Source: Diphasiastrum complanatum (lineage: Eukaryota > Streptophyta > Lycopodiopsida > Lycopodiales > Lycopodiaceae). From it: a DNA stretch of 64,000 bases. The DNA lies in contig CM055095.1 of NCBI GenBank assembly GCA_029204225.1, forward strand, positions 37,720,597-37,784,596, given 5' to 3'. Shown here in pieces: positions 1 to 60,050 of the stretch. Position 1 is the stretch's first letter. Every line of letters starts with the position of its first letter. The position numbers and the translations under genes were made by a program. A model generated the notes under the pieces. That model was not told where the DNA came from. It did not search any database and was given only the letters and a program-made list of their open reading frames with translations.

Positions 1-1801
1 CATGAAGAGTGCAAACATGCACATTTTTTAAAGAGATAGGCAGCACAGGCTTCCAGTTTGGATCTGCATATTCTCTAGTAATTCTTGTACCCCTAGTTAC
101 ATCTTTTGCCATTTTCATGCAGTACAAACAAAGGTGTTTTGATGTAGCACCGTGAGAGACATTATACATACATTTCAATGTTTTCAAATCACCTGCTAAG
201 TGCCATTCAACATTGAAGTCTTCAACTCATGGAACGTTGAGAAATCCTCCATCCATATGGTCCTTGATGATCCTAGGATAAGATGTCCTTGAGAATATCC
301 ATGATAATATATCATGATCCTCTTTCAGCACCTGTCCAAAGAATTAATCATACTTAGTTTACAATGTATTAATACTATTCAATGAATGTAATGTAATAAT
401 GAGGCTAGTTACCTAAAACGCTGCAACCACCATATATCATTTTCTGACTGGACATTGAATTTGAAATCTTCTTGGTTCTTTGTTTGGGATAGAGCACCAT
501 TCATGAGAGTTTATATTAACTCTTCCATCTTCTACCCTTTCACAATTTCTGGCTCATCTAACTTAATTACTATGATTATTTTGCCATTCACTTTTTCATA
601 GGCTATATCATAGAATGTGATGATGTATCTCAGCAAGTAATTTAGATCAACAAATAAATCGTTTGATGAATTATAGAATATCGATCTTCCATCAGTTTCA
701 TACACCTCCTCAATATGAAATGGAGTTCCAGTGATCTTATGCATACCTATGTTTAATGTATCCCTCTCTTTCTTCAAGTGATATGTCCTAGGGATTGGGA
801 CTTTTCTAATTTGAACTTGCTTAAAATCTCCTCTAATTAGTTTAAATATTGTTGCATATGCTTCCCTACTAATACTTGCAAAATCACAAGCACCCTGAAC
901 TATAGTCTTATCTAAAATATTTCGAATGTCCACCATCAAAGACTCTGCTATTTTACACTTTACATTTGGAATCCTATTGTTCATCATGATACGCTCAGTG
1001 AGTTTGCAAGTCAATATTGTGCCCAATGACATTCCTAGTGTAGCATTGTCTTTAATATTCCGAGGAGCTACTAATGCAGATCTGCAAAAAAAACAGATAG
1101 TTAACAGAATATCACCATAGCTGAAATTAAATCTAAATGTCATTGAAAAACTTACAAAATTTAGAATATGTTTACTTGAATGCACGGATCCTTCTATTTC
1201 GATAACCTCCTTTTGAAAGCGTTTGAATATCCTTGCAACTTTGTCGCTTTCGCTTCTTACTTTCAGCCTTCTTCTTTACCAAATCCACATCCTTCAGTAA
1301 TTGTAAGTTTTCAATACGAATAGACTGTAAGACTGATTGCATTTGCTCTAGTTCTGATTTGATATTGATTGCTATCTTTTGTAATGATTCATTATTTTTT
1401 TTAAGTTGTTCATTTTCTTCTAACGTCTTTTGGAGATGACAATCTCTATTCTGACAATACGAGGATATCCAAATTAACTCACCTTCTAAAAAGTGACCTT
1501 TATTCATATAGAGTTGTTTTCCATGGTTTTGCAATCTTTCATAATATCCAAGTAATCCACTATGCCCATTGCATATCCATGTAACTAAATGAATTATTGA
1601 AGAGAATGTGGGATGTGTCAAAGTGCTTGGATCTTGTGGATATAATGTTCCATTTGTCCACAAATCCATGTTTTTCTTTCCTTCTGCCCTGTAATGAGAA
1701 CGATCTTCAGCAGATATTTGAACTCCTTTGCCTCCTCTTCTCTGCAAAGGTGCCAAATCAACAGGGATATCCACATGTAGATGATATAATGTCATCATCA
1801 A
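1..1801 (-). pseudogene. Coiled-coil transposon-like protein family, copy A (3' part cut by window start)
   Basis: I do not recognise a named family. Read on the minus strand, an N-terminal part (1801-1172) holds the motif DLWTNGTLYPQDP, a coiled coil (ENEQLKKNNESLQKI) and a basic KKRKR run. A likely 74-base GT-AG intron (about 1155-1082) follows. Then come a block with EAYATIFKLI, a block with LLRYIITFYDIAYEKV, and near position 1-240 a segment with WHLAGDLKTLK, a CLYC cysteine pair and VHVCTLH. All these blocks recur in the same order in a second copy at about 15.5-18.3 kb, so this is a multi-exon family and not chance ORFs. In-frame stops between the blocks suggest decay. The Cys pair with downstream His residues could bind zinc. 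Origin from a DNA transposon is inference only. Confidence 0.55.
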
Positions 1802-5393: not shown

Positions 5394-6733
5394 ATGTTCA
5401 AGAACTTTTCTGCATTAGTCACTTTATGTGAATTAGTTGTTTTTCTAACAGTTTTAGACCACCTACGACTATTCTATACCATCATGGAGAATGCTAGGAT
5501 TGAGGTTTCAAGACTTCTAGTTGGTATAGAGTTTGAACATCAGATTGATAGGATATTGCCCATCTTCTGTGCCACAATAGATACACTTGCCACCTCCAGA
5601 GCTAACTCAGAAAGTGTGTCATTTGTCATGGATTATATAAATACAACACTTTTTCCGTATAGTGTAAAAGTTTCTGATTCTGATATTGCATGGATTCCAT
5701 ACAACTTACTAACATACATATGGAAGGGTGATAGACAATTTGTAACTAGAATCAAGAGATTTGTGCATAATCATTCTAGAAATCACTATAGAATTCTGAT
5801 AGTTGAGGAGCAGCATAGGGATAATTTGTTGAACATTGGATCAAAGATCATTTCAGGTGAGATGGTCTCTGTGTTCTTTGTTTTTGAGCATACAACTGTT
5901 CCAATGCCTACTGACTCACAGGAGGCCACTTTATGCCATGATGAGCATCCAATAAATGAAGAAGAAGAAAGAGCACTCTCCTTGCAACAATTTTCTGAGT
6001 TGTCTCAACAAACTAGTGATGCAAACAATAGATTGCTGCAAATTAGGAGCCTCTCCAATCATCATTAATGATAGAGACTACATTTTTTATCATGATCTAC
6101 AACATGTTCTCCATCTCCGAGAGGACAAACTACTAAGTGCGCTGCTGAAATTGTAGAATAGAGCCAATATATATGATCACACAGTGATTGATTATACCTT
6201 CTAGAAGTTGTGTCCGACAAATGAGGATGGCACAGGCAAAATGGCATTGGCAAAAATCCTGACAGAGCTTTGAAACGCTGGTCCCTCTTCTGAGGTGACT
6301 CACCAAGATCCAAAAGAGTACGATTTCACTCAACCGGAGGGACAACAAGGAAGCATTAACCTGAGTGACACTACAAAAGCTGATGAGGGGACACATGGCG
6401 CCATTGAAATCGATGCTTACACAGCTAGAGCAATGAGAGTGAGAAAAACCAGGGAGAGTGACTCCAAGGATGTTTCCTTGGTGCACAGGGGACACAGGGC
6501 GCCATTGAAATTGATGCTTACGCAACTAGAGCAATGAGAGTCTGCTTAAGTGCAAATCATTGTGCAAACATATTGCACAGGTGGAGCTAGCAAAAGGATA
6601 TAATAAAACACATTGTATTTTAAGAAGCGTAGTTGTAAATGATCTGAGCTCAAGCTTCGAGTCTAGGCTAGTGATTGGAGCAGCCACTGGCCCATTTTCC
6701 AAAGAATTTGATGCTCATATTATTACATCATAA
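5394..6733 (+). pseudogene. Partner gene A: unrecognised gene converging on the H3-like gene (decayed)
   Basis: Function unknown. The longest frame (5394-6068) gives up to 224 residues. The second ATG (5484, MENARIEV) has a purine at -3 and G at +4. This frame ends in an acidic, Ser/Gln-rich stretch. A frame change near 6055 leads into PIIINDRDYIFYHDLQHVL (6055-6156, TAG end). A later segment carries DEGTHGAIEIDAY (6295-6540). The last block, LKCKSLCKHIAQVEL with HCILRS downstream, ends at 6733. Three blocks match partner gene B at 49.0-50.0 kb: B has PIIIDGQEYVFMHDLQHIL, DEGTEA then AVEIDDF, and LKYKALSKHVGEVEL with YCVLRK. These matches in the same order show one gene family. The frameshifts and stops suggest a pseudogene, although short introns could explain part of this. 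It converges on the H3-like gene at 7418-8013. Confidence 0.65.
6387..6541 (+). repeat. Tandem duplication inside partner gene A
   Basis: A segment of about 54 bases starting GGGGACACATGGCGCCATTG at 6387 recurs at 6488 with a few changes (period 101). The duplicated part encodes the conserved EIDAYTARAMR block. The second copy is out of frame with the first, which adds to the damage of this gene. Confidence 0.85.
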
Positions 6734-6955
6734 ATTCTTAAGCATACACTACTGTCAAGTGAGAGGAAGGCTATTATGTACCAAAAGCTCAATGAATAAA
6801 AAGTCTCTTTGCAATTGTGTGTTTCAAAATTGGTGTTGTGTTCCTATTTGTTCATTATGATTGAAATTATAAAAGCTAATTGCTTATAAAACTAAACTAC
6901 ACAGAAAATCAGTAAAGAGGAAGTCAAGAGGAGTGCGAGATTGGACCCTTTAACA

Positions 6956-7261
6956 TAGTCAAAACCAATATTTTCATGCTCCTGCGTGATCACGTAGGAG
7001 CGTGAAAATAATGGTTTTGACTAGGTCAGAGGGTTCAGTCTTGTGCTCCTCTATGATCATGCAGGAGCGCGAAAATAATTGTTTTGACCAGGTTATAGGG
7101 TCCAGTCTTGCGCTACTCCGGGATCACGTAGGAGCGCAAATTTAGGGGTTTTGAGCTGTTCAAAGGGTCCACTCTTGCGCTCCTTCGTGATTACGCAGGA
7201 GCGCAAATATAGGTGTGTTGACCAGGTCAGAGGGCCTACTTTCGCGCTCCTCCATGATCAG
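6956..7261. repeat. Tandem array of 67-bp hairpin units between partner A and H3-like A
   Basis: Four and a half units spaced about 67 bases apart each contain a palindrome of the form GCGCTCCT...TGATCA...AGGAGCGC, centred near 6990, 7056, 7124 and 7189; a half unit ends near 7261. In the first unit the arms extend to 33-34 bases (6956-7023, from TAGTCAAAACCA to TGGTTTTGACTA). The spacers carry TTTTGACCAGGTCAGAGGGTCC-like sequence. The array lies between the 3' ends of two convergent genes, so both transcripts could read into it. Confidence 0.85.
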
Positions 7262-7417: not shown

Positions 7418-8013
7418 CTACAATTTCCTAATTTTCATGGCCAACATTAAGTCACATGGCATGAGTGTCACTCGCTTGGCATATTGGGCACAGAGGTAGG
7501 CATCTTCGAATAGTGTAGTGAGCTGATTCTTAGTAGCCTCCTATAGTGCAGATACAACCTCACTCGTGATCTTGTAGTCTAGAAATTGTCCATAATTTTT
7601 TTGATCACTCTAAAAAATGGTGTTCGAAGAAGCAAGAGATTGGTGTTGTTTTGGTACTCTCTTCCATAAATCTAGGTTGGCATTGGTTGCGTTGCAGCCG
7701 AAGATGCACCACCGGTAGCAGGTTGAGATACAACAGTAGTAGTGGCATTGTCGAGATTAAGAAGATCTTCGACGTCCGTGGGCACTATTCCCACAACCTG
7801 AACCTCAGAGTCTATGAAATTACGAACATCTTCCTTCGTTGGTGTGGGGATCCGAGGTGTAGTTGGAGAGCTCAACATGACACGGGCTGCCATGCGAAGA
7901 TTTCTTAAAATTTCATTGCGCCTGATACTCTGAAGCTGTTGCGCAGTAACCCTGAACCTGTTAGGCGCCCTTGCTGTTTGCTTTGTCCTAGCCATGTGCT
8001 TACTTCTAGCCAT
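7418..8013 (-). pseudogene. Divergent histone H3-like gene A with extended tail (decayed)
   Basis: The frame opens MARSKHMARTKQTAR, so a start at the second ATG (7995) gives the exact histone H3 N-terminus ARTKQTAR, including Lys4. After Arg8 it leaves the H3 sequence (APNRFRVTAQQ) and runs about 100 residues of non-histone spacer. A TAG stop follows at 7672-7674. The same frame then continues with EYQNNTNLLLLRTPFFRVI and KKIMDNF, aligning with H3 KYQKSTELLIRKLPFQRLV and REIAQDF. A frameshift leads to SEVVSAL-stop-EA, where H3 has SAVAALQEA. It then reads TTLFEDAYLCAQYAKRVTL and MPCDLMLA up to the stop at 7418-7420, aligning with H3 GLFEDTNLCAIHAKRVTI and MPKDIQLA. I see no intron. The protein would be a long-tailed H3 variant, but this copy is disabled. 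Confidence 0.8.
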
Positions 8014-11535: not shown

Positions 11536-12285
11536 AAGTATATCATGTATGCAAGTTAATAATGTGGCAAAGCACAATCCAATAGCGGACGAAACCGCAT
11601 GTCCTAGAAGCTTATTTTTTCTGTAATGAGGAATGAAACCTCTTCTCTTAGTCTCTTCTTCTCTCACTTGATCATCTGATCATCATCATCGTCTGAATGA
11701 TGTCCTAAATATGTATATATACATAATATTATAGGTGTGCAGATGTGAAAGTACAGAGTGGATGTGCTGTTTGTAGGAGATCGTGGGAGGCTGCAATCGT
11801 TGTCCAATCTGTTAGCGCAACTGCATGGAGTGAGCGTAAAAAGGGTGCGACGTCAGCCAGTGCTAAAGTGAACGTTGGTGATGATGCGAAAAGTGGGTCA
11901 CTCTTACGAATGGCCTTAGGTTAAGATTTATAGGGTGCCTTAGCTTTTAGGGCACCTTCAACATTCTATAGGATAGTGTCCCCTTTTCGCCTGTTACCAT
12001 AACTTGTGTAAAAACACATTGTTCGCGATTCTTTCACCTTTTATTCGTCGGTGCGAATTTGCGTGTAAATATGCAGGCTGCGTGACAACATTAGTAAACA
12101 TGTAGCAAGAATGGAGGCAGATTAAAAGTGGAATTTAGGAGAGTAGAAGGAGTAAATCCAAACACCAGGGAGTACTTCATATCGTTGTTTCATCCTTTTT
12201 CTCATGTTTTTGCTACAGCTAATCAAAATAGACACGTGTTCTTTGAGCCTTACAAGATATTCAAAAGTTTTGTTACATTGCCCTT
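11536..12285. other. Spacer with no gene recognised
   Basis: No ORF has family resemblance. A short inverted repeat, GGTGCC...GGCACC, lies near 11935-11957. This stretch separates a minus-strand Copia truncated in gag from a plus-strand Copia truncated in integrase, so it may contain a rearrangement junction. Confidence 0.35.
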
Positions 12286-15369: not shown

Positions 15370-18335
15370 CTCATAAGTTCATTAAACCACACAAAATAAT
15401 TTTTGCTACTATTCTTTGATTTGCTCATTTTGCTTTGTAGGCAACTTACATAGAATTATGTCGAGAAAAGAAAAATGCTTATCTTTTGGAGCCATTTGCA
15501 AGAAGAAAATTCCTCCACGACAACAAAATGCAACTGGTATTAGAAAAAGAAAAAGAAGATGGCAAGGAGATATGGATATATTCAATCAGTTGGAAATGTA
15601 TTTTTTCAAAACAAATCACAAATATATAGTACAATGCTATGTTTGTCAATCTATCTCCCTTGATGTATAAATTTGCATGCCTTTCTAAACTTGATGTAGT
15701 TTGTAGATTTTGTTTGATGTCATATTGGTGCTCATCGATAGAATCATTGAAATACCTGAAGGATATATTCGTGTCTACCATTGAGGCCACCATGCTGTGT
15801 GTTTTTGTGAGATGTTGCTCTTGCTTGCCAATGAGATTTTTGCATCCCTTGTGATGACCATATACTCAAACTTCCATGATTTTCTGCTAAGGAGATGGAA
15901 TGGGGTCATAATATGTGCTGCAAAATATCAATCATTTCTATCAAAAGATAAACTTCAAAAAATAAAATAAAATGGTAACTTGATATCTGTTTTTAAATGA
16001 GTACCATGTAATGTGCGACATGATCCGCTCCTCGTGCCACTTTAATTGCATCTACAAACTCAACACAAATTTTTTGGAGCAGTTGCAAGTCATTGTTTGA
16101 AAATATTTCCTTTCGTAACATTTTAACCACATCATCTAATTTTTTCCATACTTCAATTTTCAATACCCTTGTTGATCCTTTCTGCTCAAAATCTTGAGTA
16201 GCAGCTATGATATCTTTCCAAACTAAGTAACACATCTTAGATGGCTTTCCTGAATGGTTTGATAAAAAATTTCATGCCTTTGCTCCGCCAATGCTTGGCT
16301 TGCAAAGTACATTTTCTATTTTTCCCGAAAGCTTAAGGTCCTTTTGTATTTTAACATGTCCTTCTTTAGACAGAACATCTTCTAATCTAGAAATAGCCTC
16401 CTTGGAAGATGATTATAGCTTAGTGTTCCAGGCATTTAACATGTGACAATACACAAGCTTTTCGATTATTCTAACCTCAACATGGAGAGTGCAAATATGT
16501 ACGTTTTGTAGAGGAATTGGCAGAATAGGTTTCCAATTTGGATCCTCTTTGTCTCTTGTTATTCTTGTATTCTTGGTCATGTCATTTGATGATTTCATAC
16601 AATATAAACATGGATTTTTGGCAGTTGCTCCATGGGAAACATTGAACATAAATTTTAAAGTTTTCAAATCACCAGCCAAATGCCACTCTACCTTGAAGTC
16701 TCCTATTTCAGGTACATTGAAAAGTTCCCCATCCATATGCTCTTTGATAGTTATAGAATATGTTCTTTTGCTAAACACCCATGACAAAATGTCATGATCT
16801 TCTTTTAAAACCTAAAAAGTGGATACACAAAAAACTAGTCGATTGATAACAATATCAAATCCAAGTAACATACTTTATTTTTTAGTTTTTAAAATATCAT
16901 ACCCCAACAATATCAAACTCAAGTAACATACTTTAGTTTTTAAAATATCATACCCCAAATGCTGCCAACCACCAGATGTCATTCTCGGAGTGACACTGAA
17001 GTTGAAATCTCTTTGATCGTTTGTCTTTTGAAGAGCTCCATTCATGAGTGTTATACTCACTCTCTCTATTTTTTGTCCTTTAATAAGTTTCGATTCATCC
17101 AACTTCAATACCAGGACTATCTTATTGTCTACCTTTTCTGTGGAAATATCATAGAAATGTATAATAAACCTTAATAACATATTCATAACTACAAACAAGT
17201 TATTTGACTGATTGTAAGACATGGATTTTTTGTCCTTTGATTGATATATTTCCTCGATATGAAATGGAACACCGATAATCTTTTGAATTCCTCTATTAAA
17301 TGTATCACACTCTTGTTTTATTTGAAATGGTCATTGAATAAAAAATTTCTTAATGCTAACCAACATCAAAGCCTCTTTGATAATCTTAAATATGGTGTCA
17401 TAAGCATCTCTGCTTATTCCAACAAAATCATATGCTCCTAGAATTATAGTATTGTCAAGTAATTTTTGTACTTCAATCATTAATGCATCAACAATTTTTA
17501 TCTTAACACGATTGTTTTGATTATTGATCATCAATGACTCAATTGAATTTGTTGTCAACACAGAGCCCAAAAGACTTGCCTATAGTAGCATTGTCTTTCA
17601 CATTTTGATTCTCAACCAATGCAGATTTGTAAAAAAAAAAAAATGATTAATGCTACAATTTACAATCGTGCAAAAACAATATAAGATCTAAACTCGTGAA
17701 GTAAAAAAACGACTGCAAAGGCCAAAAGTCAAAAACTTACTTTAATGCATAAATTCTCCTTTTTGATAGCCTCTTGTTGATGACAAATTATGAATATTTA
17801 TGCTGATCACTCATTTTCGTTTTTTTGTTTTTATCATTTTACCTATCAAGTCAACATCTTTCAATATTTGTGAGTATGCAAAACGACCATTATTCAATTT
17901 AATTTTCATTTGGTCAATGTCTTTTCTTGTACTCACTATGATTTTTTGTAACAATTCACTATTATTCCGAAGATTTTCATTTTCTTTTTGGATAACCTCA
18001 TTCTCTAGCAATTTTATTTGCAAAATATTGTCTTTTTGAGCACAATCTAAAGATATATGTCTAATTACATCCTCTTAACAATGGATTCTTTCCATTGAAA
18101 ATGCATTACCATATTCTTCTATTCTTTTACAATAAACTAGCAAACCATTCTTTCCATGACAGACAAAATATATCAATTGAGCAACTGAAGAAAATTTGGA
18201 ATGTTGCATGGAATATGCAGGATCTTTAGGATATAATGTCCCATCTGTCCAGAGGTCCAGATTTGTTTTCCCGTCAACCCTATAGCAGAAACAATAATCA
18301 ACTGATAAGCAAGATGCTTTGACACCTCTTTTAAT
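15370..18335 (-). pseudogene. Coiled-coil transposon-like protein family, copy B
   Basis: This is the second copy of the family at 1-1801 and it shows more of the C-terminus. From high to low coordinates it reads LDLWTDGTLYPKDP (about 18260), a coiled coil (NENLRNNSELLQKI, 18.0-17.8 kb), a DAYDTIFKII block (17.4 kb) and LLRFIIHFYDISTEKV (17.2 kb). WHLAGDLKTLKFMFNVSHGA with CLYC and VHICTLH lies at 16.79-16.41 kb. A helical block with GADHVAHYM (16.2-16.0 kb) is followed by WSSQGMQKSHWQARA (about 15.85 kb). The last motif and HYM remind me of uncharacterised transposon-associated proteins in several eukaryotes, but I cannot name the family. Stops and frameshifts are frequent. The N-terminus is cut at about 18335, where a Copia fragment begins. 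Confidence 0.6.
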
Positions 18336-26352: not shown

Positions 26353-26426
26353 GAGATGATTCCTACAATCAAGCGATTGGTCATGCACATTTTAGGGTCT
26401 TAGCTTGACTAGATCTATTTGATTTA

Positions 26427-26703
26427 CATGTACACGATGGAGGCTCAACTTGATTAGATCCGTTCTCCAATAAGTGGTGATGACTTGATCTATCTAATTT
26501 ACATGTACACGATGGAGGCTCGACTTGATTAGATCCCTTCTCCCATAAGTGGTGATGACTTGTTCTATCTAATTTACATTTACACGATGGAGGCTCGACC
26601 TAATTAGATCCGTTCTCCAATAAGTGGTGATGACTGGATCTATTTGATTTACATGTACACGACGGAGGCTCAACTTGATTAGATCCATCCTCCAATAAGT
26701 GGT
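26427..26703. repeat. 75-bp tandem repeat, 3.7 copies
   Basis: Units starting CATGTACACGATGGAGGCTC recur at 26427, 26502, 26577 and 26652 (period exactly 75) with a few substitutions each. All contain TTAGATCC and AATAAGTGGTGATGACT. I see no coding potential conserved across units. Confidence 0.9.
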
Positions 26704-27390
26704 GAATTAGGTACGATCTATGTTCCTCCAAACTAATAAGGTTGGTAATTTGACTCAGATCGAGAGCATGAGGACATCATACATAAAAAACACCGAAAAA
26801 AGACTCGAGTATATGTGATTTAGTAGCTCATCCCCATGTGAATGAGAGAAGCTTTGCCCCTTAAATCCACAATTTAGTGTGGGAGTTTGTTTTGAAGAGA
26901 TGGTGGTGTTGTGGGAGTCACACTTTGGATATGAGGAGCTTTTTTCATAGGTCGTTGGTTATATTGAAGAAAAAGATCGAGATTTGAAACCGCCATGCCC
27001 TTGCTTCTCTTTTTCTTCACAAAGGTAATACATAATAATAATAAATCAGCTTTCTCTCGCTTCTATCTTTCCTTGCTTGCTCGCTTGCTCGCTAGCAATG
27101 TGGGAAAAGAGCGATGGTGGCACCAGATGTATTGTCGCTCCCCCATTGACAATGGAAGAACCTGAATAAGTCTGTATTTACAATGAAAGAAGCAGCAAGC
27201 AATAGACATAGTACATGATCGTAGATGGAAAGACAGCAGAGATGATGATCTATTGTTCTATCAATTTTTCATCTCGCAAGTTTAGTTTATTGGCGTGTTG
27301 ATCAGTTAGATCTGCGTTCTTGTCTTAAATCATCTGTTTGAAGGTGTAGCAGCAAGTTTGGAAGCAGCCCATATAGTTATTTCTCTATCC
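26704..27390 (+). promoter_or_regulatory. Upstream region and 5' leader of the BIG gene
   Basis: This gene-free stretch precedes the BIG start codon. A pyrimidine-rich segment with GCTTGCTCGCTTGCTCGCT (about 27070-27095) and further TTTCTCTC tracts are typical of plant 5' leaders. I cannot identify a reliable TATA box or transcription start. No ATG lies in frame just upstream of 27391. Confidence 0.35.
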
Positions 27391-40065: not shown

Positions 40066-40863
40066 GTTATATTGAACACCTATAAAAGTTGAAGATTCAT
40101 TTACAATTTACGACATTCATGATCTAGGTTTGCTAAGATACCTTTTTTTATTGGAGCAAGATAGTGAAATTCTTCAATAGTAGAACTCATTATGTCATAT
40201 TTATTGCAAGCACCACTTAGTATTCCTAATTCCAAATTATATTCAACTTTTTGTACAAGCATAGATGTTCTCTTAGTATAAATTTCTATAGTACATTAGT
40301 TGAGCATGTCATCATCTAGCACTAAAATTTCATAACTAAAGATTCATTTCAATTTATTGTTTTTGATGAACTAGGTTAGCCAAAATATCATTTTTATTGA
40401 AACACAATAGTGTTGTTCTTTAGTAGTAAAAATAAACTCAATGAACCTAGTTTGTCAACATATATAATTATCATAAATTTAAGTTTAAAATCCAAGTTTT
40501 GTCAAGAAAAGTTCACAAAGGTATGACAATCCTAATTCGCTAATAACAAGAAAAAAAAATCATTAGGGCCCTTTTTGGACTACAAAAGGGCCTCTTCACT
40601 AATTATAATTAGTGTTTATGATGACACGTGTACCAATAGAATATTGACAACTAAGAGGGAATGGTCCATATGACATAGCAAATTCAATGGTGCAGATTAA
40701 ATCAAGTGTGGGTCCACAAAGTACACCTCTAACATTAACTCCAGATAAAGCGATAACTATGCCTACAAGTTAACATCAACTAGCCTGTCTATCTACTGTG
40801 AAAGTACTATACTTTAGGACCATAAATGGATCTACAAAAGATCCACAAGAGTGATTGGATGTT
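40066..40863. other. Intergenic stretch, no gene recognised
   Basis: AT-rich sequence between the transposase-like fragment and the left LTR of Copia G. I see no ORF with family resemblance and no repeat. Confidence 0.35.
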
Positions 40864-41451
40864 TGCTTAACAATCTATCAAAAAACTAGACACAAAAAAG
40901 CTGATCTAGATTGGCAATTTGACTAGCATTAACAATCAAAAGCATTGATCAACATTGAAATCTATAATATAGGCTGTAGTACGACCTTCAAGCTGAGAAA
41001 CAAGTAGAAATTGATTTGGTTTCATTTGGATCACAAAAACTCAATATACATAGTGAACTAGCTTGAGATTGCCAATGAGCTCCAAAAATATTCTATCTTC
41101 TCAATATGGGAGCTTGGAATACATAGCAAATTCGACTTCCTTCTTGAAGTTAGGGGGATTTCCTGCATGTAATAAGGAATTTAACTCACTCTTCTTGCCC
41201 TAAAATGAAACCCTAGAGTTATGCTTGGTAGGTAGCTAGTTGGTCAAATTTTCACCTTAAACTTAGGTGTAGGTCCTATAAAGTAGGGATGACCACCAAA
41301 TAGTCATGACCAACTCTCTTGACTTGACCTAAACTACATTAGGAGTGGGTTTCCATGTGGCATTTTGGCCTTACATGTGTGAAACCCAATTAAACACAAT
41401 ATTTACAATGTTCTACATGGCTAGATTTGCCAAATTAGGCTATTTTTCACA
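40864..41451 (-). repeat. 3' LTR of Copia G
   Basis: 588 bases. On the minus strand it starts TGTGAAAAATAGCC and ends GTTAAGCA (TG...CA). It matches 44611-45217 nearly base for base over most of its length; the main differences are a shorter segment near 40965 and single-base changes. Confidence 0.93.
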
Positions 41452-42684
41452 GTCCTCCTCAAATCTAGCTTTGGAAATAATAATGTATCTATATACAATT
41501 CTTAGACCTGATCTTAACATCAGAAATGAATCATGTTCAGGGTTAGAAGATGACTAATCAGCCCCTAGAGATGATGACATGATCTATCACCATATCCAAG
41601 ATAATGCTTCTTTGATCTTGATCTCCTCCAAGATGAATTGAAGAGTCTTGATTCTTCCTTGCACCTTTGCACTTGATTTCTTCCATGTTGAGTGAAGATG
41701 CATGAACTTGAAACTTGCTCCTCCTTGATCTTGATGCTTCTCTTTGAAGGAAATATGATGTCTCCATGTCTTGTGAAAATCACATTGATCAAGATCACAA
41801 AACATGTACTTGCTAATATTACCAAGATTTATTATGCTAGAATGACTAGTCCACAAACCATCAAAAGTAAGCATGATTTTCCTAATCTTGTAATTACAAG
41901 TGATCTTGAACTTCATGAGGCTACGTACTTACTTATGGAGATAAGTGTCCTTCAAGGATGTTTCACTTATTCTCATAAGAAGTTTACAATTTGCCTCTCC
42001 AAAAGAAAAAACACATTTTTCAAAACAATGAGTGATTAACTCATTCTTGCTCTTCCAAAATCCAAGAGCACTCATTTGATCAAACAACCAATTTACTCTT
42101 AATTGGTTCATAACAATTTTAAGATCACTAAGACATAAAAACTTGTTCTCAAACGAGTCATTACACATCTTATCTTCAACTTCCTTCTTGGTGAAGCCCT
42201 CAAGTTGCCTCATGTAGATCTCATAGCAAAAGGGTTCATCAAGCATTGAAGTTAGAAAAGTGCTGAAAGTGAATGGTTGAGAATCTTCCCCTTGATTACC
42301 TTAGCCAAGATAAGTGAGCCTTGAAGGCTCGTCCTTTGCCTTTGTGGATCTTCTTGGAGCACTTGATCTTTGAGGTGGATCCTCAAGATCTCCATCCCTT
42401 TGTTGCTCCTCCTCAATCCTTGCAAAATCATTGACACCAAGGTTGTTGATCTCACTTTCATTCACACAAGATACTAAATGGATCCAAGCATCTCTTGTCT
42501 AAACATATAAGAATGTTTCATGCATCTTATCACCACTATTTGGTACATGAAAGAAAGAGTGTACATTTGAATGAATGATTTCCTCTTTTGCCATAGCAAT
42601 TTTAGCATCCAACTTAAACAAACTACCTTGTTTAACACCATTTGCTATGCAATTATCATTCTTCAGTATGGAACGAACTCCATG
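41452..42684 (-). pseudogene. Copia G pol scraps
   Basis: Only short RT traces can be matched. EIYMRQLEGFTKKEVEDKMC (42.24-42.16 kb) corresponds to the RT segment EEIYM.QPEGF...G.E..VC. It is followed by unmatched short frames. Integrase, the YVDD box and a clear RNase H are not found. Confidence 0.6.
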
Positions 42685-43860
42685 CTAGAAGTGAACATGT
42701 AAACCATCATCCATTAGTTGTCCAACACTAAGCAAGCCCTTGGTAATTGATGGTACAAAAAGGACATTGTCTAGATCCATCCTTTTGCTAGATCCTAGAC
42801 TTAATGAGATGGTATCAACACTATCTATCTTACACTCTTGATCATTTTCTAAAGAAAAAAATTTACTAGCACCATTGAAAGAGTGTAAGGTTGAGAATGT
42901 GTCCTTTTGGAAAGTCATGTGGGATCTAGCCCCACTATCAATCCACCAAGTGTCCTTTGAGTTGCTTTTGCTTGTGTGGGTGGATGTAGATATTATCAAA
43001 GATGAGATCTCCTCATCTTCATCCTTCTGATATGCAAGGTTCCCTTGTTTGTCCTCCTCCTCTTTTGCTCTTAGCCTCTTGTAGCATTCGAATGCATAAT
43101 GCCCCTTCTTTCCACAAAAGAAGCATTTTTGCTTTGACTTTTTCTTTGAGCTTGATGCATCATCCTCTTCTTTGGCCTCTTTGGGATGCTTCTTCTTTCC
43201 ATTAGTCTTATTTTTGCCCTTGAATGGGAAATTGGCTTTCTCATCTCCATCCTGCAAAGACAATGAACTCATTCTTGCCTTGGCGTGGAGCATCCTACAT
43301 TCTTCAGCCACTAATACACTATGAAGTTTTTCTATAGTTGGCAAACTATCTTGGATGGCAAAACTTTGGACCAAATTTGCAAAGTCATCTCCTAGACCAT
43401 TAAGGACAATTTGTACAAGCTCTCCATCTTGAATATTCTCTCCAATGGAAGCCAACTCCCTATTTAGAGACTTGATTCTGAGTACATAATCCTGGGCACT
43501 CTCCTCACTTCTCCTCATGCTTTGCAAAATCTGATTTCTAAGCATGAGAACTCTAGAAGTGTTGCTAGATTCATAGATTGATTTTAAAGACTCCCAAGCC
43601 TCTTTACCACTAGTACATGCTGGTACTTCTCTCAACAAATCATTGCTCACATTCATCTTCACACAATGAAGTGCAAGCCTAGATCTCTTCTTGTATCTAG
43701 CTAACTCCTGTGAACTTAGAGGTTCATCTTCATCCTCAATCAAGAACTCATAAAGGTCTTGGAGCACCATGAGTGACTCCATCCTAACCTTCCAAACATC
43801 ATAATTTTTAGAATTCAATCGCTCACTAGCTTCTAGAAGGTATGCTCCAATAGATCCCAT
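42685..43860 (-). CDS. Copia G gag-protease polyprotein fragment
   Basis: An uninterrupted frame of 391 residues from the ATG at 43860 (MGSIGAYLLEASERL). The gag core follows: NYDVWKVRMESLM near 20-32, CVKMNVSNDLL, SGKEAWESLKSIYE and IVLNGLGDDFANLVQSF. A Lys-rich segment precedes the zinc knuckle CFFCGKKGHYAFEC (CX2CX4HX4C). The protease has its catalytic DSG in TWWIDSGARSHMT and then VLFVPSITKGLLSVGQL. The frame ends inside the pre-integrase region. The absence of any stop over 1.17 kb is notable in a window where every other retroelement frame is broken, so this is either recent or maintained. It is close in sequence to the gag-protease at 2.2-2.8 kb. Confidence 0.92.
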   Translation of the reverse strand: MGSIGAYLLEASERLNSKNYDVWKVRMESLMVLQDLYEFLIEDEDEPLSSQELARYKKRSRLALHCVKMNVSNDLLREVPACTSGKEAWESLKSIYESSNTSRVLMLRNQILQSMRRSEESAQDYVLRIKSLNRELASIGENIQDGELVQIVLNGLGDDFANLVQSFAIQDSLPTIEKLHSVLVAEECRMLHAKARMSSLSLQDGDEKANFPFKGKNKTNGKKKHPKEAKEEDDASSSKKKSKQKCFFCGKKGHYAFECYKRLRAKEEEDKQGNLAYQKDEDEEISSLIISTSTHTSKSNSKDTWWIDSGARSHMTFQKDTFSTLHSFNGASKFFSLENDQECKIDSVDTISLSLGSSKRMDLDNVLFVPSITKGLLSVGQLMDDGLHVHF

Positions 43861-44610
43861 CTTACCAATGATTAAGAGATAGATTTGACTGACTTTGAAA
43901 CTCACAAAGGTCTCACACTTGTAGTGTTTTACTCAAATTGGATTTCTAATGCAATAAATGGACTTATAATAACAGTTCTATCACTCTCTCACAAAGCTGG
44001 AATGAAGATAAGATGATGTGAAATCTACTTACAATCAAATCTTGCCATTTTTTCACTCTATTGAGTACTCTTGAAAAAATCAATGAACACAAAGTAGATT
44101 GAACTTCTTGACCCTCCCTAAGTTCTTTTCCAAAATTTTCTCACTAGAAACTTCCTCTCTTTGGACTTCTAGTCACAGTTCTTACACTCCCTCACAAAGA
44201 AGAAATGAAGATTAGATGAGAATCTATCAAAGACTTATCAAATCCTACCAATTTTCACCATATTTGGAGAAAAACATAACTAAATCTCCCACACTCTTTT
44301 TGATGTACTTTCAAGACCTGTAAAACAAGTTTATAGGACCTGATTTCAGCCTAGATTAATTAGATCTCATGATCCTATGTCAAATCTAATCAATGGCCCT
44401 CAATCTTGGTAGCTTATCCTAAGATTTCCACCAAAAATTACATCAAAAGCTCACAAATTGAATTTCTTTGGATCAAATAAATATCATGCATTAAATGCAG
44501 GTTCAGAGGTCCCCAAATGTGTGAAAAGTATAGATTTGGATCCTTACCAATTTTGGGATCAAATCCCCTCACCAAAATCAAGATCCTAGCTCGCCCTCTT
44601 AATACTAGCT
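43861..44610 (-). other. 5' untranslated leader of Copia G
   Basis: About 750 bases between the 5' LTR and gag, without a gene. A degraded tRNA-Met-type primer-binding site (TAGTATTAAGAGGGC on the minus strand) lies at about 44609-44595. Confidence 0.6.
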
Positions 44611-45217
44611 TGCTTAACAATCTATCAAAAAACTAGACACAAAAAAGTTGATCTAGATTGGCAAATTGACAAACAACAAGCATTAACAATCAAAAGCATT
44701 GATCAACATTGAAATACGAGCCCACATGTGTGTACTACAGTCTGTAGTACGGCCTTCAAGCTGAGAAACAAGTAGAAATTGATTTGGTTTCATTTGGATC
44801 ACAAAAACTCAATATACATAGTGAACTAGCTTGAGATTGCCAATGAGCTCCAAAAATATTCTATCTTCTCACTATGGGAGCTTGGAATACATAGCAAATT
44901 TGACTTCCTTCTTGAAGTTAGGTGGATTTTCAGCATGTAATAAGGAATTTAACTCACTCTTCTTGCCCTAAAATGAAACCCTAGAGTTATGCTTGGTAGG
45001 TAGCTAGTTGGTCAAATTTTCACCTTAAACTTAGGTGTAGGTCCTATAAAGTAGGGATGACCACCAAATAGACATGACCAACTCTCTTGACTTGACCTAA
45101 CCTACATTAGGAGTGGGTTCCATGTGGCATTTTGGCCTTACATGTGTGGAACCCAATTATATACAATATTACAATGTTCTACATGGCTAGATTTGCCAAA
45201 TTAGGCTATTTTTCACA
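44611..45217 (-). repeat. 5' LTR of Copia G
   Basis: 607 bases, same termini as the 3' copy. Compared with the copy at 40864-41451 it has about 19 extra bases near 44740 (GAGCCCACATGTGTGTAC region). The close match suggests a relatively recent insertion. Confidence 0.93.
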
Positions 45218-45597: not shown

Positions 45598-46900
45598 TGG
45601 CCTCCAGTCAATCAAGGAAGCCCAAGAATCAACTGGCTTCCATTGTTGCACACATCAAAGATGCCAATGTCTCATAAATTCTCAACTTTTGACTGGGTTT
45701 ACATGCAACCTCTGGCAAAGGAACTCACAAGGTTGCAAAGAGAAAGCAAAACAACCAAGACTACCATTGGAAATGAAGGATCCACAATTTCAAGATCGAC
45801 CAAAACGACGAATATCTTGCAAAAGTGCAACACATATACATGCGTTGAGATATTTTATTTCGGGATGTGGCTGTTGCTGATAGAACCATATAGTCACATT
45901 GTAAGTCCCACCTCTTTTATTCTTGTGTTAAATATTATGTTTGAATTTTTATTATGACATTGTAATGGATAAGAATGTTGTATGAATGCCGGGTGCAGAT
46001 GTCTTTCCTTCAAATAGCTGGCAAAACGTGAAGTCCTTCACTGGAAAATTCTCTGCCATACACGTCAAATATGGAGAACTGATATATGGTGGGTTGACAT
46101 CCTCTACTCTAATCAAAATGGGCATTTTCGTTTACGATCACATGTACGAAGTTCCAAAAAAAAAAACTTCGGCCAGGGCAAATTAGCACCAATTTCTGAG
46201 CCTACGATCAATTCTCATGAGTGACCATATGTTGACCAGTTGACTATTGAATTAATGAGGAGGCAACTTCTTAAAGAGATTATTGATAATATGAAGCCAA
46301 CATTCGGATCCAAACGAGTCTACACTAGCATCTATGTGCTGATCACTATATTTGTTGCCATATTTAAGGTAGTCCCCTTTAGGATAACATATTTGTTGCA
46401 GGGGATTCAAAGGAAATGGAGACAAAGGAGATTTAATAAGGTGTAAGCTCTCTTGTCAAACAATGACCATAAGGTATCAAACATGCTCCTTAAGTTTCAT
46501 CTATAGGCGATATAAGTTTGCTCATGGCTGATGGGACGCGTTGGACGCTGAGACAAATCAGCAAAAAGTGAAATATCCATACATTTTCTCCATGATGAAA
46601 TACAAGAAGTTCATATCAATAGGGAGTGCAGCCTAGAAGATCTTCGACATATGCTTGGATTGACTTTTGCTGATGTGCCAGCAAATTTGTTTTCACTTGT
46701 AATGGACAAAATGTAAGTCCCTAATTTGCATCAGATTCTTGAATTTCAAATAGTAATGCTGAATACATATAGAAGGATTATTAATTTTGTGTCTGGTTTT
46801 GCAAATACATAGACGAGCCGAAAAAGATCAGATTTGTGTTTCATTTTAACAATCATGGACATTAGGAGTCTAATGGGAATAAAGGATTTTATGTAATGAC
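45598..46900 (+). other. Unrecognised gene-like fragments upstream of H3-like gene B
   Basis: Several short frames look exon-like but match no family I know. A possible start is at 45598 (MASSQSRKPKNQLASIV). Others are a frame with HVKYGELIYGGLTSSTLIKM (46000s), one with LTIELMRRQLLKEIIDNMKP (46240-46446), and one with ECSLEDLRHMLGLTFADV (about 46630-46690) followed by a consensus GTAAGT donor. Stops separate them. They may be a decayed multi-exon gene on the plus strand. Confidence 0.25.
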
Positions 46901-47227
46901 ATATAGAAAGCACAATTAGTTGGTTGTGTTTAGACTCTATTCAAATATGATTGGTTGTGTTTTGACTTTACTCTTGCATTATCACAATTCATATGCCTGT
47001 TAGTACATTCGTGGATGTCTAAGTAAGGTTGAGACAACTTGTTAGGGTTTTAATCGTTTAGTGATATGCATTTTATCAATAATATTGGTTTTCAATCAGG
47101 TTTCTTTGAAGGTCTCTGTTAACTTGCAATTCAGATCTCTACTCATGCGCCAAGACATGAATATACTATATTTGGAATAGAGGCCAAAATATTTATAGGA
47201 TCACTTACTAAAAATAGAACCCTTCAC

Positions 47228-47235
47228 TATATAAG
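47228..47235 (+). promoter_or_regulatory. TATA box of H3-like gene B
   Basis: TATATAAG, 114 bases upstream of the ATG at 47349. An AGGCCAAAA motif lies about 45 bases farther upstream, as at gene A. The following leader is pyrimidine-rich (TCCTCATTTTTCCACTTC). Confidence 0.55.
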
Positions 47236-47348
47236 GGTGTTTGGGTCCTCATTTTTCCACTTCATCCCTCGAGTGTTAGAGTGTCAGTTTTCAAAGAGTT
47301 TCCGTTTTCCAGATTTTGTGTTTTTTGATACGTGTTCACGAGGAAGAT

Positions 47349-48547
47349 ATGGCACGGACGAAACAAACGGCTAGAGATCCCAGAGTGATTGCATTGCTCC
47401 ATCGGGATGCACTAGCCGCCCTCGATGATAGAGAGAGAAGGGGGAGCAGAAGTAGGAGTAGGAGTCGTAGCCCAAGAGCGATGCAAGATGATTCGACCAC
47501 TTAGCATGAAGCTGAGGAGGAAATGGCCCAACCACTAACAAGACAGCAGGAGGAGCAACAACAACAACAGCAACAACAACAACAAGAGCAACCACAACAA
47601 TAGCAACCACAACAACAAAGAAGCCCTTCCCCGACGCCAACTGAACGGGAAGAAACAATGCAGTTCTTGGACCAAGAGCTTGTGGCATCGGGTGCATTGC
47701 CGATTTTGAATGATTCATTCTTCGACCCATTTTCACTAGCAACGAGCATGGACAGGGTGGACTTGAACATATTGGATGACACCACACCTACCGTGTCACC
47801 CCCAAGTCATGGGCTAGTGATGGGTCCAATGATGTCATTGTTGGTGGGCGATTCTAATGAGGGCACCCCGATTTCACAGACAACAAGGATGAAGCATAAG
47901 GCGACACATAGACGGTCTGGAAGTAGAGCACACAAGCAAAAGAAAAAAAATCCCCGCAAGGTAGGCTCTACACCAAAGAGAAAGAATCTTGTTGCTCCAC
48001 TGCCATCACCACCGCCCCCACCGCCAACATTGCCTCCACCTCCACCTCCACCTCCACCTCCACCTCCACCTCCACCTCCACCACCTCCACCACCTCCACC
48101 TCCATCTCCACCTCCACCTCCACCACCTCCACCACCTCCAACTTCTGCCATAGCTGGCCCAAGTAGGACCATAGAGTATGAGAGGGGTAGGCCAGTCCCT
48201 CGTGGGACACCTTGGGCTGGAGCTCCATAGGATGCAGCCACCATCTCCTCGATCACGTAGGAAGTGTAGAATTGCAAAGTGGCTGCAAGATTTAAGGAGA
48301 TATCAAAAATCTATTAAATTATTGATACCTAGGGCCCCATTTGTGAGGCTTGTCAAAGAAATAATTGATGAATTTTCCTTGGGGAATAGGGTTATGGCAA
48401 ATGCTGTGTCGGCGATACAAGAGTTTGTGGAATTGTACTTGACACAACTTTTTGAAAACTCATTTTTGTGTGTAGTACGCGGAGAGAGTCACAATAGTCC
48501 TGAAGGATCTCCACCTTGCTAGAAGGTTAAGGAGAGAGCGTAATTGA
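47349..48547 (+). pseudogene. Divergent histone H3-like gene B with a very long Ser-Arg/Gln/Pro tail
   Basis: The ATG (purine at -3, G at +4) opens MARTKQTARDPRVIALL, identical to H3 through Arg8; the H3 Lys9 position and the following K-rich tail are absent. In one frame to 48230 come an Arg/Ser run (SRSRSRSRSP), a Gln tract, MDRVDLNILDDTTPTV, basic RRSGSRAHKQKKK and a long Pro run. That frame holds two TAG stops (47502, 47601). The +1 frame then gives an H3 fold: LRRYQKSIKLLIPRAPFVRL, VKEIIDEF, AVSAIQEFVELYLTQLFEN and SFLCVVR. After a further shift the third frame gives ERVTIVLKDLHLARRLRRER, stop at 48545-48547. This aligns with H3 from KYQKSTELLI to the C-terminus, with no extra loop-1 residues. 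It would be an H3 variant with an N-terminal extension of about 290 residues; this copy is broken. Confidence 0.85.
48000..48140 (+). repeat. Proline-coding (CCACCT)n/(CCACCACCT)n repeat
   Basis: A purine-poor hexamer/nonamer repeat encodes nearly 50 prolines in the tail of H3-like gene B. Its units keep the reading frame, so length variation here would not by itself cause the downstream frameshift. Confidence 0.9.
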
Positions 48548-48790
48548 AAATATGATGTACTGAAGATTTTATCTATAATATACTGAAGATTTTGTGTTAA
48601 GTATATTGAAAATTTTCAGGTAATGTGAATGCAAATTGTTGTGATTGTGTTTAATATCTGATTTCAGGTTTATTTGATTGCAAATTTGAGTAATTCAGTA
48701 CTATCTATGTGAATGGAGTGATTTGAGATTTTTAGTACTATGGGAATGATTGTTTTTTATTATGATTTAGTTAAAGATATTTTTTTTTTT

Positions 48791-48900
48791 GCCTGGGCGT
48801 GAAAATCACGCCAAGGCGCGACCACGACCACTTTGACCTAGTCAAAGTGGCCTATGTTACGCCTTGGCTTGAAAATCACGCCTTGGCGTGATTTTTTTTC
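48791..48900. repeat. Inverted repeats between H3-like B and partner B
   Basis: A perfect 10-bp stem, CCACTTTGAC-CTA-GTCAAAGTGG (48828-48850), sits between larger imperfect arms. The left arm has GCGTGAAAATCACGCCAAGGCG and the right arm CGCCTTGGCTTGAAAATCACG. Like array A, it contains GCGTGAAAAT and a TTGAC-CTAG-TCA core and lies about 250 bases past the H3-like stop codon. Confidence 0.75.
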
Positions 48901-49012
48901 ATTTTTATCAAATATATTTTAAAATTGAATTCTAAATTATAAGAATAATTACATCAAATAATTAAAACAGATAATTAGGAGAGTCGACAAGAAAAACTGA
49001 CAATGTCTTTAT

Positions 49013-50015
49013 TCACATGCAGTTTATTTCCTTTAGAGAAGACTTCAGATTCTCTGATCGCTTTGCTGATGACATTACTGATTTTAGCATATCTAATGCT
49101 AATTTCAAAGCATCACTCTCATTCTCGCGGGTCAATTAAACCTGAGAGAATGATCCAAGTCTCAAATCCAGGACATAAATTATTCAAAATGGCTTTTCGG
49201 AGGACACAGTAAGCCTTTGGCGCTGATGGGGACAACTCTACCTCTCCAACGTGCTTGGAGAGCGCTTTGTATTTAAGAAGCTCCGTTAGTTAATTTGGAC
49301 TGTACTTGTTGCTGAAGCAGAAAATAAAGTTGTTGGGCAAGCTCCCAACGTAGTGGGCCAGAGACTTATCCAGAGTTCCTACTTCAGCTTTTTCTCGAAC
49401 GTCGCCCCTTCGCATAGCAAAGTCATCAATCTCCACTGCGTCCTGCATTTGGTTCAAATTATTGCAAAATGAGTATAATGAAGACAAACAAACATAACAA
49501 AAACACACAAGTTGAATTGTTGGGTCAAACTCGCCTCAGTCCCTTCATCAATGTCTTCGGTTTGCACAAGCTGAATTCCTTTGCCTTTGTACTCCACATT
49601 GACGTTTTCCTGTCGAGTACCTCGAATGGCCTCATTTGAATTGGTGGTGGCTGAAGTGTCTTCAATTGGCAAAGTACTCTTGCGAGTGCTTTCTGAGTGG
49701 TGTCCGTGTCATGGCCGATCAGCTACTCATACGTGTCGTCGGGCTGGGTGTGGTCGAATGTGGAACTGCCATGCCGCAACTTTACTAATGCTGCCAACAT
49801 CTCATCTTCTTGCAAGCCAAGAATATGTTGCAAATCATGCATGAACACATACTCTTGCCCATCAATGATGATTGGAACAAGCCATGGATACGAAGCATGA
49901 CATCATTGGACTCATCTATATCCTCTGGCTCCGCTGATGTGGATGCACCTCTTGCCACTTGTGCTGCCAAGACTGATTCCTACTCCGAGGATAAATCTTC
50001 CTCTTTAGCCTTCAT
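49013..50015 (-). pseudogene. Partner gene B: unrecognised gene converging on H3-like gene B (decayed)
   Basis: The minus-strand order matches partner A. An acidic Ser/Glu-rich segment (EPEDIDESNDVMLRIHGL, about 49930-49880) is followed by a frame change into PIIIDGQEYVFMHDLQHIL with ED.MLAALVKL. Then come VEYKGKGIQLVQTEDIDEGT (49672-49530) and a probable intron ending in AATGCAG. DAVEIDDFAMRRGDVREKAE (49440-49380) is followed, past one stop, by LKYKALSKHVGEVELS with YCVLRKAIL. A helical tail ends at a TGA at 49013-49015. The N-terminal domain of partner A (about 180 residues) was not found here; it may lie upstream beyond an intron or the CT microsatellite, because the ATG at 50015 is preceded by an acceptor-like CACCTAG. 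Function unknown; no catalytic motif that I recognise. Confidence 0.65.
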
Positions 50016-50308: not shown

Positions 50309-52413
<2,105 letters not shown>

Positions 52414-52733: not shown

Positions 52734-53253
52734 ATTTCTCAATTATAGACTATACCTTTACATAGAATTTAGCTAACCATTGAATATTGTGTAGGTAGGA
52801 CTGTGGGTAGAAAAATATTTTATTTTTGTATTTTACATTGCCAAAAATTTGTAATGGCAATCCTTATAGGGCCCTTTTGAAGGCCAAAATGTCTCTAATG
52901 GGTCATGCATCTTTACTATTGCAAGGTGTGAGTGAGGAGAGAAATGACAATTTGTAGAGATCGTAAGTGCCTTTCCACTACTTACAAGGTACAAAGTGAA
53001 GAAACACACAATTGACATAGTTTACACTTCTTTGGATTCATTTTGTACATATTTTTGGTAGTTGCTACCCATGGTTAAACTTTAAGGTCCCAATATGCAA
53101 CTACATTCTTCACATGACAAGGTAAAATCAATGTGAAAATTTAAAGAGTATTAGACTAAACAAAAATGTGTTAGGCATGTGTATGAGAAATGGTAACAAT
53201 TGCATGTGAATTACAAACTTAATTTTTATTGACCTTTTGACTAGCTATCTAGT
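52734..53253. other. Intergenic stretch, no gene recognised
   Basis: AT-rich sequence between the fold-back element and SINE copy 2. Nothing recognised. Confidence 0.35.
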
Positions 53254-59110: not shown

Positions 59111-59203
59111 GAAGATTAGAGGCGATATTGTTACCCTCTCTGAAGCGAAGAATGGATTCCTCTGGATTCTACCATAGCAGAGAGCTTCCGATCAAGGTCT
59201 TTT

Positions 59204-60050
59204 ATGGACATTCAAAACTGTATGAATTGTAGCACATGTTCAAAAAATGATAGATTGCACTGGTTTCTATCTTTTGCAATGTTTGTAAAGGTTTTTGTTA
59301 AATTTAATATTTGTAGAACAACGACAATTTTAATTTGTAGTGATTTAACAGACGAGATGTTATCAGGCCTCCTAGATGATCAATGGGATAAAAAGAGTGA
59401 TGGCAAATTCAAATACATAGTTAATAGATTGTCAATGAAATTTAGATATCAAATAGAAAAACAAATGCTTTCTTTAACATTTTAATATAGAAGATGGTCC
59501 AAAGTTGGCAATGAATAGAGAGCATTGAATCAAGATTCTACATAAAATCATCAAGATCAAATAGAAATTCAAGTGACGCAAAATGATTCTACTATTACAA
59601 CAATTGAGGTGGAGGTAGATTGGACACTGAATCGATCAGAGCTTACTTTGCTGCAATATGATATTCCTGAACACTTTTGTTTTCGATTCAATGAGAGATT
59701 GATACATGTATGTGTGTTTTCTATACAATGTTAATACACATTTGAAATGACTTTCAATGAGTTTATTTAAAATTATTTCAGTGTTTTCACTATTTTGTGC
59801 TTGCATCTAATATCTATCCCAATGTTGTTATTGTTTAACAAGTTTCTTTGATGTACATGTAAGACCAAGACAAGAAAATCGTATATAGTGCAAGGATTTA
59901 AATACAAGTGTAGAAATTGTCAAAATCGCATAAACATTGGGATGGTAGACATGCAACAATGTACCTTTCAAAAAAAGAAACTCAAATAACTTCAAGATTT
60001 CATCGAACATATGGTATTCAATATTTTGGGAAATGTACATTGTTAGCAAA
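59204..60050 (+). other. Unrecognised exon-like ORFs
   Basis: A frame with LTDEMLSGLLDDQWDKKSDG (59340-59410) faintly resembles Myb/SANT-like domains. A second frame, VDWTLNRSELTLLQYDIPEHFCF, ends at a consensus GTATGTG donor (about 59707). A third has a CRNCQN cysteine pair (59910). These may be exons of a decayed plus-strand gene. No family identified. Confidence 0.2.

Follow-up and report, generated by a model that had tools for sequence, protein, structure and literature searches.

Transposons are known to carry VANC proteins and TET/JBP enzymes. A search of openly licensed papers, at the level of titles and the beginnings of abstracts, returned no description of a transposon that encodes a histone of the nucleosome core. 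The VANC anti-silencing proteins of VANDAL elements counteract silencing (PMC10398659, PMC5735166), and several lineages of fungal DNA transposons carry a gene acting on chromatin or DNA marks, in this case a TET/JBP dioxygenase (PMC12730594). Here we describe a group of transposons with a histone H3-like gene from a 64-kb stretch of the genome of the lycopod Diphasiastrum complanatum (“the window”), which a whole-genome search placed at C4:37720597-37784596 of the 1.745-Gb assembly of 5176 contigs. With the VANDAL elements this group would share an element-encoded protein that acts against silencing, possibly via element-specific short motifs, whereas VANC is to our knowledge not a histone. 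In the TET/JBP transposons the gene product is an enzyme, here it is a nucleosome core protein, and the host is a plant. Histones are also encoded by viruses, as with bracovirus H4 and the histones of giant viruses; in contrast, the carrier described here is a transposon in the host genome, and only an H3-like gene is visible.

Two loci of the window, A and B, each combine an H3-like gene with a partner gene that faces it and a palindromic array. At locus B these follow each other from left to right: the H3-like gene on the plus strand (47349..48544, TATA-like box at 47228) with a MARTKQTAR tip, a Q/P-rich linker and an H3 fold, the array (48791..48891) with two GC-rich palindromes, 70 bp apart, that flank TTTGACCTAGTCAAA, and the partner gene on the minus strand (49116..49973). 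Locus A is the mirror image, with the partner gene on the plus strand (5484..6751), an array of 67-bp period and five motif sites (6927..7260) and the H3-like gene on the minus strand (7424..8013), which begins MARSKHMARTKQTAR. This arrangement, including the inverted repeats between the genes, had been proposed for both loci from the letters alone and was recovered with Pfam, tblastn and the arrays. The H3 fold passed the cut-off of PF00125 at both loci (E 3e-16 for B and 9e-18 for A), using query pieces typed by hand (B 47349-48544, plus strand; A 8013-7424, minus strand, joined across one frameshift and with X at a stop), and for a 71-aa piece of B taken directly from the window the best match among solved H3 chains has an E of 1.5e-14. 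The MARTKQTAR start is exact in both genes. Homology of the partners also holds, with 59% identity over 34 aa in block 2 and 35% over 65 columns in block 3 (tblastn E 2e-11 and 9e-11), and the N-terminal part of the A partner is 43% identical to family I (see below) over 138 aa (E 9e-36). On the other hand, the suggested likeness of the acidic tail blocks is weak (E 0.06), and A and B are not a duplicated pair. Their DNA is nearly unrelated, the best match being 57 nt of the partner at 72%, and the array core (21 nt, 86% identical) is alone not significant (E 0.8). A is a member of family III and B is family I-like, and both are decayed transposon copies. Both H3-like genes are broken, that of B by TAG codons at 47502 and 47601 and by frameshifts, that of A by a TAG at 7674, a stop at ~7543 (before EATK) and a frameshift at ~7582. 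The A partner is open to 6065 and then runs into a frameshift and stops; the pieces of the B partner show 78-82% identity to their family I counterpart, and the N-terminal part of the B partner was not found.

In the whole genome the PF00125 profile gave 6325 first-look candidates; scoring of 150 of these yielded 153 matches, 150 of them listed. Among the matches listed, 134 form one score class of 95-110 bits with members on every contig from C1 to C23, 13 are canonical H3 (164-165 bits) and three are partial (83-84 bits), two of which (L037, L038) proved to be intron-split host H3 genes. Since neither window copy is among the matches listed, the total is likely much higher; against a higher copy number, some of the matches listed may be duplicated or haplotype DNA. 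Two family I copies ~12 Mb apart on C8 (L009, L022) have the same flank, 99.5% identical over 2 kb, so that they did not insert independently but stem from a duplication of the DNA. L010 and L012, one on a small contig and the other on C5, are closely similar and share their neighbouring frames; they are possibly uncollapsed haplotypes, and copy counts may be inflated accordingly.

We fetched 30 of the 134 loci, 20 with 9.9 kb, six with 3 kb and four with 1.6 kb, the last showing only tail and fold. All 30 belong to three families (16 in family I, 13 in family II, one in family III). The family I histone has the MARTKQTAR tip, a Q-rich and P-rich linker and an H3 fold ending in LRRERN, that of family II starts with MDRRKQTRR and continues behind the fold into a C-terminal extension of ~200 aa, and the family III locus (L035) has matching stretches 77-82% identical to the DNA of locus A. 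Copies are 89-99.5% identical to each other in family I and 82-96% in family II. Families I and II carry four genes, the H3-like gene, the partner, alpha and beta, the presumed transposase, so that the 2.8-kb two-gene module of the original prediction is the middle of a unit of ~9 kb. The order in family I is end, alpha (+), H3 (+), array, partner (-), beta (-), end, and in family II end, beta (+), partner (-), H3 (+), alpha (-), end, whereas only H3, array and partner are visible in family III. In consequence, the convergent layout of histone and partner stands for families I and III but not for family II, where the two are head to head. H3-like loci without the partner would have spoken against the pairing as such; however, the partner adjoins the histone in 23 of 26 non-canonical H3 loci with flanks, and it was not seen in the fetched stretch of the other three (L017, L024, L040).

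Copies with both ends are bounded by CATTAG...CTAATG inverted repeats, the family I end reading CATTAGGGCCCTTTTTGGACTCAAAAAGGGCC and the family II end CATTAGAGGAGTTCTCAATATCAAAAAGACCC, each inverted at the opposite end and with 0-3 mismatches. For two copies of family II the measured lengths are 8681 and 9305 bp, and for family I a length of ~9 kb was estimated from partly overlapping loci. Shorter derivatives also occur, namely a family I copy of 6404 bp that lacks most of beta (L009) and a family I derivative of 1090 bp nested in L013. For empty sites, we compared joined flanks with uninterrupted relatives, and three of four sites tried were readable. Both ends together with an empty site were found for L009 (family I) and L028/L032 (family II), both inserted in Copia elements: the relatives of the former are Copia in L010, L012, L019 and L020 (76-84% identical), that of L028 is Copia in the window itself (43170-43369, 92%). 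The nested derivative of L013 has empty relatives in L026, L027, L014 and partly L028, and for the site of the L018 element itself no empty relative was found. At all three readable sites the junctions in these empty relatives show neither a target-site duplication nor a loss. Inverted terminal repeats, dispersed copies and empty sites, the features of a terminal inverted repeat DNA transposon, are present in families I and II, and the units of families I-III are almost certainly inverted-repeat DNA transposons, which bears out the earlier proposal of a mobile, amplified selfish unit with a histone variant. Duplication of a host gene pair was rejected on account of the dispersal of the copies and of the terminal repeats at their borders.

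Beta is presumed to be the transposase from its motifs and its position. In families I and II it has KLD, HLA(G/A/V)DLKTL, C(I/L)YC and QGMEKSH in this order, and across both families and the window the elements of a D, D, C(2)C, E pattern were matched 10, 13, 13 and 11 times, respectively. HI(F/V)YAH, that is H(4)H before the last E, occurs in four family I loci and in none of family II, and the surroundings of the last E resemble RAG1. Among described elements, the CMCT transposons (PMC12730594) come close with their CA...TG ends, which are also found here, and their several genes. Their transposase has D, D, C(2)C, H(3-4)H and E motifs, to which those of beta, judged by pattern, may correspond, with H(4)H in family I only. 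In contrast to their 2-5 bp target-site duplication (PMC12730594), none was present at our three sites, and the elements described here carry a histone and yield no Pfam transposase match. The missing target-site duplication is shared with the Spy transposons, but these belong to the PIF/Harbinger-ISL2EU-Spy group, and no such domain appeared in our Pfam scans, beta having no match to a PIF/Harbinger-type transposase above the cut-off.

The folds of families I and II are identical to host H3 at 48-51 of 91-92 residues and keep R69, R83, K115, R116, V117, T118, K122, D123 and L126, which we take to be contact positions. We compared 32 tails (19 of families I/III, 13 of family II), found by a scan that required similarity to the two tips, which grossly decayed tails would escape: K4 is present in 32/32 and K9 in 0/32, together with Q5 (31/32), T6 (30/32) and R8 (31/32), and position 9 is D in 27, E in two, G in two and A in one, and thus acidic in 29 of 32. 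Host tails read MARTKQTARKSTGGK, with the K9 that all 32 element tails lack; the protein has the PF00125 fold of a core histone without the canonical H3 tail. Between family I and window A the codons of MARTKQTAR differ by seven synonymous and no non-synonymous changes at 6.7 synonymous sites, between family I and L035 by five and none, and between family I/III tips and four host H3 genes by five to nine and none, whereas the 120 nt following the tip are only 20% identical (ungapped) between A and B. The ARTKQTAR tip of families I and III is kept by purifying selection. The ratio of non-synonymous to synonymous substitution rates (dN/dS), summed pairwise over copies picked by histone score, is 0.42 (family I, 12 copies) and 0.20 (family II, eight copies) for the fold, 0.56-0.63 for linkers and extension, 0.36-0.64 for the partner and 0.43-0.58 for alpha. 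Among the 26 copies fetched with flanks, at least seven can be read without interruption from the tip to the end of the fold. In L009, L021 and L016 a second in-frame ATG lies four codons upstream of MARTKQTAR, in a start context presumably weaker than that of the tip ATG; in window A and L035 such an ATG lies six codons before the tip, and window B has none.

The arrays are a further feature confined to part of the group. In the 64-kb window, all 11 matches to TTTGACCWRGTCARA with up to two mismatches (both strands, six places) fall in the two arrays, with 1.7 expected, and the narrower pattern TTTGACCTAGTCAAA with three mismatches has nine matches, seven of them in the arrays (mean expectation 3.8; nine were reached in 2 of 100 shuffles). 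With at most one mismatch, TTTGACnnnGTCAAA is present at both window loci, in L035 and in 12 of the 15 flanked family I loci (all except L019, L020 and L024), but in 0/10 family II loci and 0/4 flank tiles. Where family I has multiple copies, these are spaced by 70 bp, with a single exception of 62 bp in L021. The partner gave nothing above the cut-off against Pfam, NCBIfam, PHROGs and PDB (HTH_Tnp_4 with E 0.04 and a PDB chain with E 0.2 were not used), and a single-sequence AlphaFold model of the N-terminal part of the A partner, with a mean pLDDT of 39, has no usable fold.

In plants, a loop of dimethylation at lysine 9 of H3 (H3K9me2) and CHG methylation silences transposons. With its fold and many of its contacts preserved, the element H3-like protein would pair with host H4 and enter nucleosomes, either on the element or widely. 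As K9 is gone in every tail read and K4 stays, such nucleosomes could carry the active mark but not H3K9me2, and would thereby break the silencing loop. Similarly to VANC, the partner or another element protein might direct the histone to the element, using the palindromic array where families I and III have it. That VANC of VANDAL elements counters silencing in Arabidopsis gives the strategy a precedent, although not with a histone. An anti-silencing role of the element histone is tentative, judged from its sequence, and the same holds for nucleosomes that it may render refractory to H3K9 silencing. Slightly more speculative is the fuller picture of a transposon group that might make its own silencing-proof chromatin from a K4-bearing, K9-less H3, with the array possibly serving as an address in families I and III. 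Transposon identity and anti-silencing role taken as a whole are, in our judgement, reasonably probable as the best explanation. The stop changes touch the same subject: 40 of the 60 listed, a few of which overlapping queries may count twice, are C:G to T:A, most commonly CAG to TAG (18), and this dominance fits CHG methylation decay of methylated, silenced copies. Reading TAG, the stop codon in the window H3 genes, as glutamine was rejected, as CAG-to-TAG and other C-to-T decay is seen against the majority codon and the ARF-GEF exons of the window read normally.

Several observations weigh against this explanation. The fold has changed at R49, R63 (to P), R72 and K79, its dN/dS is lowered by the choice of loci by histone score, and the loss of K9 could be simple relaxation. 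ARTKQTAR is exact in 11 of 19 family I/III tails, the others having one or two changed residues (R2 or T3 in five, T6 in two, A7 in one), the family II tip reads MDRRKQTRR, and the upstream in-frame ATG in families I and III, if used, would leave the tip not free. On the side of the transposon, the role of beta depends on motifs and position, with H(4)H in four family I loci only; beta has no Pfam match above the cut-off, no relative among solved structures and no match in viral contigs or phages. Its dN/dS is high (0.92 in family I; 0.87, 0.74 and 0.45 for three pieces in family II), and many copies may consequently be non-autonomous. Finally, L018, a related copy of the L013 site, has a 17-bp gap (~1585) that starts exactly at the L013 insertion point (1083/2174); the gap may have been left by an excision or be coincidental.

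Of the other explanations, the one that survives best, though unlikely, is that the histone serves transposition, with ARTKQTAR docking on host readers of H3K4 or the fold building a nucleosome-like transpososome, and so steers the element to open chromatin. The conserved part is a short peptide of the kind bound by H3 tail readers, and in families I and II the H3 gene is kept together with beta, alpha and the partner, but the three readable insertions, only three sites in all, lie in Copia elements and another element and not in evident open chromatin. Less probable again is the capture of a CENH3-like or mitotic variant that would act in segregation or associate with centromeres, with R2-T3-K4 used as in H3T3 phosphorylation. 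The folds contain a LIP motif, family II has AAED as in plant CENH3 and a loop 1 one residue longer (family I has that of H3), and an H3 tree, compatible with an origin from H3 or from CENH3, joins family II with plant CENH3 at 82/79. However, identity to CENH3 (42-46 of 91-92) is no higher than to host H3, the copies listed are spread over all large contigs, and position 3 of family II is R in 13/13. Slightly less probable still is a passenger gene without function, picked up a single time from the host as an H3 pseudogene or retrocopy; many copies are broken and transposons often carry pieces of host genes, but the histone is present in three families, its tip has 5-7 synonymous to 0 non-synonymous changes, the fold dN/dS is 0.20-0.42 even if biased by histone-score picking, and the partner stays beside H3 in 23/26 loci. 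An endogenous virus is very improbable: several genes, a convergent layout and many copies would suit it, and viral histones exist, but inverted terminal repeats, a nested deletion derivative and precise empty sites speak against it, as do the 20 scanned frames, in which no capsid, packaging or polymerase gene was matched by Pfam above the cut-off (distant homologues could be missed), and four scans of viral contigs (partner A, H3 A tail, H3 B fold, beta), which mostly reach close relatives and gave none.

Further remnants of the same group surround the two loci. Element B has a left terminal inverted repeat at 40561..40592 (plus strand, 2/32 mismatches to the family I end), an alpha relic at 45944..46721 (plus strand, pieces 52-92% identical to family I alpha) and, tentatively, a right terminal repeat at 52869..52900 (minus strand, 9/32 mismatches). 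Between the left repeat and alpha lies a long terminal repeat retroelement (40863-45217, ends 93% identical), whose Copia gag (42685-43905, minus strand) gave the empty site for the family II copy elsewhere. A (TC)n microsatellite (~50310-50470) adjoins the B partner, and an S-L repeat frame preceding alpha in three family I copies (L011, L021, L024) resembles it. A family II element running off the start of the window has left a beta relic at 1..1266 (minus strand, with 85-92% identity to family II), and a different element, family II-like, has a beta relic at 15735..17646 (minus strand) with partner-like pieces at 12170-12286 and 15372-15524 (plus strand). Another element is marked by an alpha-like relic at 59144..59728 (plus strand, 41% to family II alpha) and a CATTAGAGG stretch at 54002. 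The remaining window is plant-like DNA with BIG-type ARF-GEF exons (27.4-35.7 kb), just before which a tandem repeat of 75-bp units lies at 26406-26705, and several Copia pieces; scans of the window for Rfam families and tRNAs gave no match.

If the anti-silencing role proves true, these elements would attack a silencing mark directly, through substitution of the histone on which it sits, and they would offer a natural case in which the functions of H3K4 and H3K9 are separated. Whatever the function, four-gene inverted-repeat elements that combine CACTA/RAG1-like motifs with a lack of target-site duplication form a lineage that needs placing, and in such genomes H3-like genes might wrongly be annotated as histones of the host.

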